This document shows, in pieces, positions 17,187 to 47,812 of a stretch of 64,000 bases of DNA. A program made the translations under genes and the position numbers. The DNA is taken from assembly GCF_004217045.1 (NCBI RefSeq), contig NZ_SGXM01000001.1, positions 1,364,001-1,428,000 of the forward strand, read 5' to 3'. The notes under the pieces are model-generated. The model was not told where the DNA came from, searched no databases, and saw nothing but the letters and a program-made list of their open reading frames with translations. This DNA comes from Cupriavidus agavae (lineage in GTDB: Bacteria; Pseudomonadota; Gammaproteobacteria; Burkholderiales; Burkholderiaceae). Each line of letters begins with the position of its first letter. Position 1 is the stretch's first letter.

Positions 17187-17327
17187 TCAACCAAGTTTTC
17201 CGGTAAGCCCCGCATAGGCAAGATAGAACATGAACGCGTAACCGAAAACGAGCATTACGCCGACTGCGCGCAATACGGCTGCGCGCGTCTGCTCGAAATT
17301 CTCGTCCGACAGGCATGCCAGTTTCAT
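17187..17327 (-). CDS. Small single-span membrane protein (46 aa), module A
   Basis: A 46-codon ORF with a good ribosome site (CTGGAG, 7 bases before ATG) encodes an acidic N-terminus (LSDENFEQTR), then one hydrophobic, aromatic-rich segment (about VGVMLVFGYAFMFYLAYAG), then a short basic tail. No known family is recognised. It lies 50 bp after the 153-residue membrane-protein gene. The same two-gene order recurs at 30912-31303, where the second gene encodes a 45-residue protein of the same design (S/T-D-x-N/D-F motif, then an aromatic-rich span). That parallel is the main argument that this short ORF is real. Confidence 0.6.
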   Translation of the reverse strand: MKLACLSDENFEQTRAAVLRAVGVMLVFGYAFMFYLAYAGLTGKLG

Positions 17328-17377
17328 TTGAATCTCCAGGTTCGAGTCGATAAATCAACGCTGCTGTAACGATGGGT

Positions 17378-17839
17378 TCATCCCGCGGTCACCACGGGCC
17401 GAATCAGAAACACGTAGCCAAGGAAGTGCATTCCTCCACTGAGCACCGACAGAAAGACGCACGTGCGCAACATCGGGCCATCATCCGTGTCCCTCGACAA
17501 CCAAAGCGCATCGCGCAGGCAGGCAGTCCTGGTAGCAAGCATCACCAGCACAGAGGACACCACGATAACCAGGACATGGGCCGTCATCACGCCCCACATG
17601 ACCTGTCTCAGCGCCCATGCCTCTTCCAACGCAGACGCCAGCATGTAGCACGCACTGGCGCTCAGTGGAATGACGGCCCAGAGCAATTGCCCATCCTTGA
17701 TGGCAAGTCTGACTGAACTCCCATGGCGGCCGGCGGGCACGTTGGCGAATTGCATCAACGGCAGCAACGCCAGCGGCGCCAGCAAGGGAATGGCGACGTT
17801 GAACACGAACCAGCCGAGCAGTTCCAGAACACTTTGCAT
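17378..17839 (-). CDS. Four-span membrane protein of unknown function, module A
   Basis: This 153-residue protein has about four hydrophobic segments (residues ~8-28, 51-68, 80-103, 128-148) and no recognisable domain. Its start, GWFVFNVAIPLLAPLALLPL, is nearly identical to the start of the 69-residue protein at 30912-31121, where GWFVFHVAIPLLAPLALLPL occurs; beyond residue ~28 the two diverge and the other is much shorter. GAGGTGCC precedes the ATG. It is followed by a 46-codon membrane-protein gene, probably co-transcribed. The function is unknown; envelope stress or respiratory-complex accessory roles are possible but nothing in the sequence decides. Confidence 0.7.
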   Translation of the reverse strand: MQSVLELLGWFVFNVAIPLLAPLALLPLMQFANVPAGRHGSSVRLAIKDGQLLWAVIPLSASACYMLASALEEAWALRQVMWGVMTAHVLVIVVSSVLVMLATRTACLRDALWLSRDTDDGPMLRTCVFLSVLSGGMHFLGYVFLIRPVVTAG

Positions 17840-18160
17840 GGCACCTCACGCTGAAGACGACGCAGGCAATGCTAGGCCCGAGATTCGCGCTCGCCAAGGG
17901 TCCATGTGTCAAATCGACGGGAAGACCGCCCACGGCGTGGCGCGGCACCAACTGAGTCCTGCGGAAGTGTTAAAGATGTAGTCGTTCTACGAGAAAAGGA
18001 GTCCTACTGGCCATCGGATGGCTTGCGCTATCGTTCCTCGTGTCAGACGCCAGGCGCCTGAGAGAGTTGGGAAGAAGCGCCGAGAATTGACGCCTCGCAA
18101 CGACTCGGCGCCACGCATTGGCTATGGTCGGCAGACTTGGAACTGTGGGGAATCTGCACC
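17840..18160. other. Intergenic region without a supported gene
   Basis: These 321 bp separate the divergent membrane module and the Tlde1-like gene and presumably hold both promoters. Short ORFs crossing it on both strands lack ribosome sites and overlap the flanking genes out of frame. No strong hairpin or operator was found. Confidence 0.5.
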
Positions 18161-18802
18161 ATGGCTGTCGTGACGCACTCGTTGGTCCGTGAGATAGAGG
18201 GAGATCCGATCCTCAGGCGAGCCCTTGCCGAAGCCCATCGGGCCAAGTTCGGGTTGGTCGCGCGTACGACTGATGTCCGGCTGATGGTCGAGATGCTTGG
18301 GCTCGAGGAAACCGCGCGGCGCATAGAGAGCCGTTACGCCAGGCTCGACTTTGATGGCAAGGTCCTTCGCTGGATCGAGAATGGCATGGCCTCACGATCA
18401 TGGCTTGCAGTTTCGGGAGCGCTGGGTTATCAACACAAAAGGTATCAGGACGTGCCAAACAAAGGGCCAATTCCAGAAGGCTTTTACGTTGCCAGACAGG
18501 CCGAATTGCAGAGGCGAGAGGATTACGCCGCGTTCAATCGAGTGATATGCCACTTGGGTGGGGTGCCTTATCTGAAGAAATTCTCCGGTGCGTGGCCGGG
18601 TTGTGGTTTTGCGTGGGGGGATCGTCGCATCTGGCTCGAACCGTTGGGCGGGAGCTCGATGCTCGGCCGCAACAACTTCTCTATCCACGGAGGAAGCTTC
18701 CCTGCATCTGCCGGTTGCATCGATCTCACGTCCGACATGCCCGACTTTGTGGATAAATTTCTCAAGTATGGCAAAGACCTCGAACTTCGCGTTAGGTATT
18801 GA
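18161..18802 (+). CDS. Tlde1-domain (DUF2778) L,D-transpeptidase-fold protein, putative T6SS effector
   Basis: This 213-residue protein has a C-terminal Tlde1/DUF2778 domain: DFDGKVLRW near 63-71, LAVSG at 82-86, NKGPIPEGFYVAR at 100-112, and the catalytic core FSIHGGSFPASAGCIDLT with His176 and Cys186. Proteins of this family are type VI secretion effectors that cut or exchange D-amino acids in peptidoglycan tetrapeptides in the target periplasm. There is no signal peptide, as expected for a T6SS cargo, and the first ~60 residues form a helical region of unknown role, longer than the minimal domain needs. The ATG at 18161 (GGGGAATC upstream) is preferred over a TTG at 18137. A membrane-protein gene overlaps its 3' end. 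No T6SS structural gene, VgrG or PAAR lies in the window. Confidence 0.75.
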   Translation: MAVVTHSLVREIEGDPILRRALAEAHRAKFGLVARTTDVRLMVEMLGLEETARRIESRYARLDFDGKVLRWIENGMASRSWLAVSGALGYQHKRYQDVPNKGPIPEGFYVARQAELQRREDYAAFNRVICHLGGVPYLKKFSGAWPGCGFAWGDRRIWLEPLGGSSMLGRNNFSIHGGSFPASAGCIDLTSDMPDFVDKFLKYGKDLELRVRY

Positions 18803-19100
18803 GATAGTCATCCGAATAGGCATCTCCGCCCTATCGGCCTTAGTTGCGGTAGGCATGAACGAACATCTGATGTCCGGCCTCTATCCACACTTCACCGGCG
18901 CCATAGTGTCGTACCTGTTCAGCGCGCTCCTGAGTCTTGGATCGATGGCGTGGCCAACTCGACTGAATTCCACGCGATGGTATCTAGGCGGGCCGTTCTT
19001 CGCGCTGACGGTGCTTGGAATAATATTCTCCGACTGCTCCACCTGCTGGACGGGAATGTTCAAGGTCCATGGATGGCTGGGAATTGACCCATTCTCTTAG
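18768..19100 (+). CDS. Three-span membrane protein, candidate immunity protein to the Tlde1-like effector
   Basis: This 110-residue protein has about three hydrophobic spans (residues ~8-30, 42-62, 71-89), Cys residues in FSDCSTCW and a short tail. No known family is recognised. It begins inside the last 35 bases of the effector gene in another frame, which implies translational coupling. This is how many effector/immunity pairs are arranged. Immunity to a periplasmic peptidoglycan enzyme would require its loops to face the periplasm, which the membrane topology allows. The start at 18768 lacks a clear ribosome site; a later ATG (residue 30) would remove the first span. The immunity role is inferred from position only. 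Confidence 0.55.
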   Translation: MAKTSNFALGIEIVIRIGISALSALVAVGMNEHLMSGLYPHFTGAIVSYLFSALLSLGSMAWPTRLNSTRWYLGGPFFALTVLGIIFSDCSTCWTGMFKVHGWLGIDPFS

Positions 19101-30787: not shown

Positions 30788-30911
30788 GAGTTTTCTCATG
30801 ATCAGACGCAAACCACACTGCAACTGACACTAAAAGTTAACAAAAACACTCTTGGCGCGCCGTTCCGTGGCGCTTAGCATGGCTGCGTCCATTTCATCTT
30901 CAAGGAGCGCC

Positions 30912-31121
30912 ATGACCCATGCCATCGAGATGTTCGGCTGGTTCGTGTTCCATGTCGCCATCCCCCTGCTCGCCCCGCTGGCGCTGTTGCCGCTGGCGCG
31001 CCTGCCGGAGTTCTCGCGTTCGCGCAGCGGCGGCATCGTCCGGCGTTCCCTCATCGTAAGCTTTCTAAGTGCTTTTGCGACCTCGGTCGCACATGCCACG
31101 CTGTTTGTCGAACTCCCCTGA
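30912..31121 (+). CDS. Two-span small membrane protein, module B
   Basis: This 69-residue ORF has a near-perfect ribosome site (AAGGAGCGCC then ATG). Its first ~28 residues, with GWFVFHVAIPLLAPLALLPL, match the start of the 153-residue protein at 17378-17839 almost residue for residue. The rest is a basic linker (FSRSRSGGIVRRS) and a second hydrophobic span ending FVELP. It looks like a shortened relative that kept the first span and perhaps the last. A 45-codon ORF follows after 44 bp, repeating the gene order of module A. The function is unknown. Confidence 0.65.
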   Translation: MTHAIEMFGWFVFHVAIPLLAPLALLPLARLPEFSRSRSGGIVRRSLIVSFLSAFATSVAHATLFVELP

Positions 31122-31165: not shown

Positions 31166-31303
31166 ATGAGCAATTTTCTCGAGCGCATGGTCACCGACAT
31201 CGATTTTCAGGAAAAGGTCATCTATCGCACCCTCGCTGCCATTTCCGCCTATGCCGTCTTTGTCGGCTTCTATGCGGTGTACTACGTCTTCACCCGCGAG
31301 TAG
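31166..31303 (+). CDS. Small single-span membrane protein (45 aa), module B
   Basis: This 45-codon ORF has a GAAAGGAAACGAGT ribosome site. The product has an amphipathic acidic N-terminal part (FLERMVTDIDFQEKVIYR) and one aromatic-rich hydrophobic span (ISAYAVFVGFYAVYYVF), then TRE. It shares layout and the (S/T)D-x-(N/D)F motif with the 46-residue protein at 17187-17327. It is the last plus-strand gene before convergent purL, and the terminator at 31313-31342 lies between them. The function is unknown; small single-span proteins often stabilise larger membrane complexes, but no partner is evident. Confidence 0.65.
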   Translation: MSNFLERMVTDIDFQEKVIYRTLAAISAYAVFVGFYAVYYVFTRE

Positions 31304-47578: not shown

Positions 47579-47639
47579 CGCCCAAAACAAAAAGCCCGCT
47601 GGCGCGGGCATTGTGTTTTGGCGGAGTGGACGGGGCTCG
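47579..47639. repeat. 61-bp repeat, copy B (native end of tRNA-Asp)
   Basis: This copy contains the real 3' end of tRNA-Asp (47619-47639) and its terminator. It is the source or partner of copy A, 145 bases away. Confidence 0.85.
47583..47609 (-). terminator. Terminator of the tRNA-Val/tRNA-Asp transcript
   Basis: The stem GCCCGC/GCGGGC (47594-47599 with 47604-47609) is followed on the minus strand by T5 and further T. It lies 10 bases past the tRNA-Asp CCA end. Confidence 0.75.
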
Positions 47640-47695
47640 AACCCGCGACCCCCGGCGTGACAGGCCGGTATTCTAACCAACTGAACTACCACTCC
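47619..47695 (-). tRNA. tRNA-Asp (GTC)
   Basis: The 77-nt cloverleaf on the minus strand begins GGAGTGG and ends CCACTCC-G-CCA with CCA encoded. The anticodon loop CTGTCAC gives GTC (complement of 47659-47661), and the T-arm reads GGGTTCGAGCCCC-like. It is the second tRNA after tRNA-Val and is co-transcribed with it. Confidence 0.95.
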
Positions 47696-47736: not shown

Positions 47737-47812
47737 TGGTGGGTGCTGAGGGGCTCGAACCCCCGACCTACGCCTTGTAAGGGCGCCGCTCTACCAACTG
47801 AGCTAAGCACCC
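47737..47812 (-). tRNA. tRNA-Val (TAC)
   Basis: The 76-nt cloverleaf on the minus strand begins GGGTGCTTAGCTCAGTTGG and ends GCACCC-A-CCA with CCA encoded. The anticodon loop CTTACAA reads TAC, serving GUA/GUG-type valine codons. It lies 41 bases before tRNA-Asp. Confidence 0.95.

Follow-up and report, generated by a model that had tools for sequence, protein, structure and literature searches.

A two-gene family of four-span and single-span membrane proteins in Cupriavidus agavae and other Burkholderiaceae

Introduction

KdpF, CydX, AcrZ, and MgtS are small bitopic subunits of membrane complexes. A gene pair in a 64-kb stretch of the Cupriavidus agavae genome (64,000 nucleotides, hereafter the window) resembles these systems in having a single-span protein of fewer than 50 amino acids (aa), easily missed, that is encoded with or acts on a larger membrane protein. 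It differs from them in its partner, an unclassified protein with four helices in about 150 aa; neither protein has an accepted family match, and a survey of 60 Cupriavidus genomes located the small protein behind this partner and nowhere else. The pair can also be compared with paired small multidrug resistance (SMR) proteins and Fluc/CrcB pairs, in which both partners have four helices. These likewise consist of two small neighboring genes, one of which encodes four helices in about 110 to 150 aa. However, the second protein of the module described here has one helix, and neither protein type was matched in Pfam. By prediction, the module places a single-span protein of less than 60 aa beside a polytopic partner. 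A full-text literature search, at the level of titles and the openings of abstracts, found nothing on this gene pair.

Module copies in the C. agavae genome

A preliminary description of the window reported a duplicated unit of two small membrane protein genes, each preceded by a ribosome site. The open reading frames (ORFs) of copy A were found as described, with an SD-like sequence before each ATG, but two copies proved to be an undercount, as a third (copy C) lies beside alaS in the same genome. The features are as follows.

17378-17839, minus strand: copy A large gene, an ORF of 153 aa with four predicted membrane helices
17187-17327, minus strand: copy A small gene, an ORF of 46 aa with one predicted membrane span
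30912-31121, plus strand: copy B large gene, an ORF of 69 aa, in-frame internal-deletion derivative
31166-31303, plus strand: copy B small gene, an ORF of 45 aa
31324-31341, between the copy B small gene and the convergent purL: GC-rich inverted repeat, terminator-like, seen by eye in the sequence and unscored
G000:C1:472515-472943: copy C large gene, adjoining alaS in the 5.79-Mb genome

In copy A, the small gene lies downstream of the large gene after an intergenic gap of 50 nt, and the SD-like sequences are GAGG (large) and GGAG (small). The AF2 model of the large protein places its helices at residues 2 to 30, 40 to 71, 78 to 111, and 121 to 152. The small protein resembles the family in position, length, SD-like sequence, and its SDENF motif. 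In copy C, a 44-aa ORF follows the large gene after 13 nt. The large proteins of copies A and C are 37% identical, and both large genes look intact. The small genes of these two copies appear too divergent for kinship to be claimed from sequence alone.

Between copy A and a livF-type ABC gene lies a plus-strand ORF of 221 aa (18137-18802) that matches the Tlde1 domain PF10908 (E = 1.1e-5; 26.3 bits, cutoff 30.1) and, weakly, YkuD. Its product is possibly an L,D-transpeptidase-like antibacterial effector, and a hydrophobic frame directly after it (about 18803-19100) could encode a membrane immunity protein. In the copies L010 and L059, livF and the module lie just 168 and 349 nt apart, respectively, so that the Tlde1-like gene is absent there; in L054, the distance is 1131 nt. 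An Rfam scan of the window at gathering scores yielded two tRNA genes (47622-47695 and 47740-47812, minus strand) and nothing else.

The second pair in the window had been said to repeat the design of the first. This held only by half, since the copy B large protein retains the first and last helices only. Positions 2 to 46 and 120 to 143 of the large-protein profile match it, with nothing between; N14 is replaced by H, and GQLLW is gone. Compared with L011, a 148-codon full-length relative at the same site, the gene lacks 79 codons in frame. The deletion ends map to GCATCGTCC and GCATCATCC in L011, and GCATC(G/A)TCC repeats lie at both ends, suggesting a deletion between short direct repeats. 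Over the first 46 codons, which were kept, comparison with L011 gave a pN of 0.11 and a pS of 0.45, differences that may all predate the deletion. The copy B small gene starts 44 nt after the large gene. The copy B large gene is probably a decaying remnant, whereas the small gene of this copy is intact.

The sequence likenesses noted between copies A and B are present, i.e., the nearly identical GWFVF(N/H)VAIPLLAPLALLPL in the large proteins (one difference in 20) and the similar starts of the small ones (SDENF in A, TDIDF in B). Direct BLASTP comparison was weak, with E = 9e-05 over 15 residues for the large proteins and no alignment for the small proteins. The kinship of the two large genes is nevertheless secured because copy B matches the family profile at 5.8e-17. 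Since the copy B large gene is a deletion derivative, the argument from duplication within one chromosome is weaker than had been stated, and other genomes provide much stronger evidence than the duplication within the window does. The observation itself largely holds, and the module is a genuine two-gene family that extends beyond the window.

Large-protein family and its distribution

When 200 Burkholderiaceae genomes were searched with the copy A large protein (P0001), 22 had matches at E <= 0.01, the weakest of them doubtful; the weak matches L025 to L030, four of which have internal stops, were excluded from use. A search with the L020 protein, from a second subfamily, gave matches in 42 of 398 genomes at E <= 0.001, decayed copies counted, and a profile search of 60 Cupriavidus genomes located 24 copies, spread over 12 of them. 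The final set comprised 52 distinct large-gene sequences from 93 loci with profile E < 1e-3, including those of the window. In an alignment of 44 large proteins, which omits copy B, the broken or degenerate L082, L083, L086, L087, and L089, and the near-duplicates L032 and L071, residues W10, P18, P22, L26, G50, and Q51 are invariant, and N14, L52, W54, and S127 are found in at least 90%. The copy A large protein has all of these residues (alignment A3).

The A1 search of 399 genomes of the order matched two, the source genome and one of the same genus. The A3 search of 300 genomes of the order returned the same two plus one weak match in G248, and in 229 genomes of the class A3 matched the source genome only. 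These order and class searches scored 9 to 17 candidates per genome, and A1 missed genera that were found by the protein query, so relatives outside the Burkholderiaceae may have been missed. The weak match (L126, G248:C31:57779-58072; E = 6.2e-4), in another family of the order, lies inside a 374-codon open frame and is possibly due to chance. With the L007 protein as the only tblastn query, there was no match in 72,556 plasmid and 50,697 phage records. Viral contigs, searched with A1 only, gave no match either; with a single query per collection, divergent members could have been missed in all three.

Pairing of the small gene with the large gene

We scored a large gene as paired when an ORF of 40 to 55 aa with a hydrophobic 17-mer and an SD-like sequence started 0 to 70 nt downstream, with control genes taken from the same sequences. 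This was the case at 45 of 52 module loci compared to 2 of 211 control genes, which bears out the conserved pairing proposed for the window. The seven misses comprise L062, where the start of the small ORF overlaps the large gene; L005 and L049, with frameshifted small genes and intact large genes; L078, with a small ORF of 33 aa; and L083, L086, and L089, with fragmentary large genes. The small proteins are mostly 43 to 48 aa long and usually start 10 to 60 nt downstream of the large gene. At 47 of 50 listed small starts, GGA, GAG, or AGG occurs at -15 to -5, although this was also a criterion for choosing starts.

A profile of dissimilar small proteins scored higher on the real sequence than on at least 198 of 200 half-preserving shuffles for 42 of 46 small proteins (L049, L078, L083, and L086 were left out beforehand, and the set included no small ORF for L005 or L089). 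The failures were copy A (L001; 12 of 200 shuffles as good, at 5.6 bits, making its membership by sequence marginal), copy C (L002; 163 of 200), L060 (49), and L079 (14). The copy B small protein scored 22 bits against the profile of the other small proteins, with none of 200 shuffles as good. The small-protein profiles of the two subfamilies align with each other (P = 4.9e-05; probability, 68%). In 60 Cupriavidus genomes, all 21 small-profile matches at E <= 3.2e-8 lay directly downstream of a large gene; as the profile included most of these 21 sequences, the informative part is that there were zero orphans. Six further matches at E values of 0.014 to 0.083 were taken as noise. Behind each of the divergent large copies on G123:C5, G222:C1, and G208:C4 (L023, L061, and L062) there is a small ORF without a small-profile match.

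The preliminary description had named decay in close genomes as a possible refutation. Stops, frameshifts, or truncation were found in L005, L049, L082, L083, L086, and L089, and most copies are intact. In L049 (G217:C14), the frameshift lies in a run of seven G just ahead of the membrane span and is compatible with decay, sequencing error, or phase variation. The L005 and L049 frameshifts were each seen in one assembly, that of L005 being a metagenome bin, and may be sequencing errors; if real, they suggest that the large protein may persist without the small one.

This pattern bears on whether the module could be a toxin-antitoxin or other addiction module, with one membrane protein as the toxin and the other as its neutralizing partner. 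Two small codirectional membrane protein genes that are accessory and multicopy, with a fast-evolving small partner, would suit such a system, and 1 of 23 small proteins weakly matches the GhoT/OrtT membrane toxin family (Pfam, E = 0.051). However, although the two genes strongly co-occur, each is found intact beside a broken partner, the small gene in copy B and L082 and the large gene in L049 and L005 (subject to the same possibility of sequencing error), which makes addiction less likely. In addition, the copies mostly stay at fixed sites, the one or two queries run against the phage, plasmid, and viral collections had no relative there, and PADLOC gave one weak match among 20 large proteins and none among 32 small proteins. 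We therefore consider an addiction module quite unlikely.

Selection on the two genes

By the Nei-Gojobori method, the dN/dS of the large genes was 0.10 to 0.54 in every within-site pair listed, and that of the copy A large gene against the livF-site copies of three relatives was 0.19 to 0.38. The computation shows that the large protein is under purifying selection, and its reading frame is conserved in relatives, as the preliminary description had expected of a real gene. For the small genes, the same check gave a divided answer, favorable in many close pairs and unfavorable for copies A and C. Values of 0.00 to 0.30 were obtained in the slipin-site and allA-site pairs, in L015/L017/L091 and L013/L032/L058, and in L006/L009, L006/L047, L054/L059, L034/L071, and L067 with L068, L069, and L072. 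Other pairs were near 1 (L068/L069, 1.00; L022/L075, 1.13; L022/L074, 0.82). The alaS-site pairs except L013/L032/L058 ranged from 0.6 to 1.5 and the more distant pairs from 0.2 to 1.5. Against same-site relatives, the copy A small gene gave 0.51 and 1.18, with the third pair saturated, and five pairs with the copy C small gene gave 0.61 to 1.04, of which three were within 0.05 of 1 and the others were 0.61 and 0.75. Purifying selection is thus supported for part of the small genes, and copies A and C are not among them. The small gene evolves fast.

The poor conservation of the copy A and copy C small genes and the pairs with dN/dS near 1 would be expected if the large gene alone were functional and the small ORFs were a hydrophobic by-product of operon-tail sequence. 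This is very unlikely in view of the pairing counts against control genes, the passing of the profile shuffle test by nearly all small proteins tested, the SD-like triplet at most small starts, and dN/dS values of 0.0 to 0.3 for the small gene in several groups.

Predicted structure and searches for known families and folds

AF2, run on A3 (large protein) as a single chain, returned four long helices with a pLDDT of 82 and a pTM of 0.68. The mean net charges of loops 1, 2, and 3 over the 44 rows were +2.48, -0.64, and +1.73, respectively. By the positive-inside rule, loops 1 and 3 would be cytoplasmic and both ends of the large protein periplasmic. The copy B small protein was predicted (AF2, A6; pLDDT 92) to form a short helix at residues 2 to 10, a break at D11, and a long helix at residues 12 to 43. 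K or R occurs within the last four residues of 35 of 40 small proteins, and either orientation is compatible with this. We also considered docking of the acidic N terminus of the small protein on the cationic loop 3, but this was dropped (Spearman rho = -0.23, p = 0.15, 40 pairs).

Foldseek searches of the four-helix model against PDB and BFVD gave nothing at E <= 0.001. The best VIA-align Z score, 11.1, was for helical bundles and is within the range for unrelated models. A profile search of PDB sequences gave one designed protein, at E = 0.18. With no confident fold match, no biochemical activity can be assigned to the large protein.

The preliminary description recognized no family for either protein, and nothing in the family libraries reached accepted thresholds. 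For the large proteins, the libraries covered were Pfam, PHROGs, and PADLOC (20 members) and NCBIfam (44 members); for the small proteins, NCBIfam (18 members), Pfam (23), and PHROGs and PADLOC (32). The large and small proteins of copies A and B (P0001 to P0004) had no accepted match in Pfam and NCBIfam. No match to the KdpF or CydX families proper was found for small proteins A and B (Pfam and NCBIfam), 18 Cupriavidus members (NCBIfam), or 23 others (Pfam), and the large protein matched neither KdpA nor CydAB in Pfam and NCBIfam. The library matches were scattered, and those for which a cutoff was shown fell far under it. We rejected as generic helix matches, among 20 large proteins, DUF2434 (E = 0.00084; 1 of 20), CopD (0.0027; 1 of 20), DUF308 (0.0048; 2 of 20), phrog_10233 (0.0092; 1 of 20), PADLOC Specificity_I (0.011; 1 of 20), and DUF1218 (0.031; 3 of 20). 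MFS LfrA (0.0065; P0003, the copy B large protein), Blr (best 0.025; 7 of 44), and, among small proteins, phrog_26171 (0.0027; 2 of 32) and MmpA (0.0065; 1 of 18) were set aside likewise.

Two weak profile matches were considered individually and rejected. Residues 44 to 100 of P0001 resemble SdhC, the cytochrome b556 subunit of succinate dehydrogenase (NCBIfam NF007021; E = 0.00069), but the score was 19.7 bits against a curated cutoff of 180 bits, it was obtained for 1 of 44 members, and no histidine is invariant in the 44 rows, where a conserved heme histidine would be expected. The N-terminal part of the copy B small protein matches the Nif11-like leader pattern of RiPP precursors (TIGR03798; E = 0.011), but at 16 bits against 32.3 bits and for this protein only among 18; a membrane span follows, and the predicted structure of this 45-aa protein finishes with a long helix.

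A promoter-like element ahead of the module

A three-box element lies upstream of both copies in the window.

17869-17912, minus strand: copy A promoter-like element, TTGACA-N9-TTGGCG-N17-TAGCAT
30837-30880, plus strand: copy B promoter-like element, TTAACA-N9-TTGGCG-N17-TAGCAT

The form TTCACA-N9-TTGGCG-N17-TAGSAT, with constant spacing, occurs ahead of most Cupriavidus copies. In its wider form, TT(C/A/G)A(C/G)A-N9-TTGGCG-N17-TAG(G/C)AT, the -10-like box lies 35 to 121 nt before the ATG. Two regular expressions applied to the 260 nt upstream found the element in 18 of 24 Cupriavidus copies and in none of the other 28 of the 52. The divergent L023, L061, and L062, which have no element, are among the six Cupriavidus copies that neither pattern matched. 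L011, L054, and L058 carry a near version, and L060 fits poorly; this display used the best-fitting window chosen for each of 20 copies, so it leans towards the motif.

TTGSSG-N17-TAGSAT occurs twice in the 64-kb window, at copies A and B, compared to 0.06 expected. In the 5.79-Mb genome, the element had three matches at up to two mismatches, all at module copies. At up to three mismatches there were four, three of them at modules; the fourth is at chance level, since the reversed control gave two, and no further regulon members were found in this genome with this pattern at that tolerance. Across 60 genomes, there were 36 matches at up to two mismatches. Those with no more than one mismatch, 12 in number, all lie upstream of a module, compared to 2 of the 24 with two mismatches; many of the rest are recurrences of a single similar sequence in different genomes. 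Each duplication could simply have carried the element along. However, the protein paralogues A and C are only 37% identical and the N stretches are not the same, which makes the boxes look as though they have been kept by selection. The element and both protein families are new as far as could be seen.

At the metC-serB site in other genera, a CATTCGGCCGAATG-like palindrome lies ahead of a TACGAT box; it reads ACCATTCGGCCGAATGGT in L067 and is partly conserved upstream of L072 and its relatives. This different conserved palindrome suggests that the regulator of the module may differ in another genus.

Genomic sites and inheritance

In Cupriavidus, the module mostly adjoins purL, livF, or slipin/alaS. 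In other genera, it is found between metC and serB or beside lipA, allA, or other housekeeping genes (names were read by eye from translations, with at most one neighbor per side). In a 46-row tree, the livF, alaS, and slipin copies each fall on one side of a branch. The support of the alaS branch (92/83) is under the starred level, and the purL copies need three changes (L005 and L014 stand apart). We examined 30 of 60 purL sites, to about 1.5 kb beyond purL, and 7 had a large-gene match below 1e-14, while 23 had none below 0.8; G069, which carries the module at this site, was not among the 30. The carriers are mostly the nearest relatives of the window genome, and when genomes are ranked by PurL match, 11 of the 12 Cupriavidus carriers come within the top 14. 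The site grouping, the position of carriers among nearest relatives, and the absence of plasmid, phage, and viral matches to the single query used for each point to vertical, site-bound inheritance, and in Cupriavidus the module looks clade restricted and sometimes lost.

The same data bear on the possibility of an immunity or exclusion unit, whose four-span protein would guard against a membrane-acting bacteriocin, effector, or phage with the small protein as its partner. Such a unit might well show dispersed paralogues of small membrane proteins that diverge from one another and are carried by a minority of species, as is the case here (12 of 60 in Cupriavidus), and a gene with a subthreshold Tlde1-domain match adjoins copy A. 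However, this gene is transcribed divergently to copy A, and the space between livF and the module in L010 and L059 is too short to hold it. Across the neighbors covered, at most one per side, effector or secretion genes do not recur, and the ones identified by eye are housekeeping genes (purL, livF, alaS, metC/serB, and lipA). A private promoter-like element common to several sites and site-bound inheritance are not typical of immunity genes. An immunity role is in our view unlikely.

Proposed role of the module

The preliminary description interpreted the pair as a functional membrane complex. This is supported in part: the pairing, the absence from family libraries, and the selection on the large gene agree with it, and the complex itself is what these features suggest. 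We somewhat favor the reading that the module is a self-contained bicistronic unit whose products form an inner-membrane complex, in which the small protein serves the four-span protein as a subunit or regulator. The unit would be driven, in most Cupriavidus copies, by a sigma-70-like promoter that has an additional box 15 bp ahead of its -35 box, presumably as a single transcript. The first gene would encode the four-helix inner-membrane protein, both ends of which would be periplasmic and the two positively charged loops cytoplasmic, and the second gene the bitopic partner with its short helix, acidic kink, and one membrane span. The two proteins would bind each other and assemble in the inner membrane, where the small protein may act as a subunit or as a regulator of activity or stability, in a mode comparable to that of KdpF or CydX. 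The four-span partner may be of a channel, carrier, or sensor type, unrelated to the partners of KdpF or CydX. Counted against this reading are the AF2 model without a confident fold match; the small genes of copies A and C, whose products do not score clearly above shuffled sequences and whose dN/dS values, like those of some other small-gene pairs, reach about 1; the intact large genes beside frameshifted small ones in L049 and L005; and the six of 24 Cupriavidus copies in which neither pattern found the promoter-like element.

More tentatively, and with considerable doubt, the module may represent a new class of inner-membrane machine, so far seen only in Burkholderiaceae, in which a four-helix protein organized around a W-N-P-P-L face on helix 1 and a GQLxW entry to helix 2 is gated or stabilized by a dedicated partner of 45 residues. 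One Cupriavidus clade would then have several coexpressed paralogues kept by a regulator of the private three-box promoter, which would serve no other genes of the genome, and these paralogues may form isoforms with different partners.

The module adds a pair of membrane protein families without an accepted Pfam, NCBIfam, PHROGs, or PADLOC model, of which the small gene is easily missed by automatic annotation. The mode, in which a membrane protein has a tiny bitopic partner, is already known and is an active question in small-protein biology. As one private promoter-like element is common to most Cupriavidus copies, the signal that controls the module, and with it the physiology, could be approached through a single reporter or DNA pull-down.
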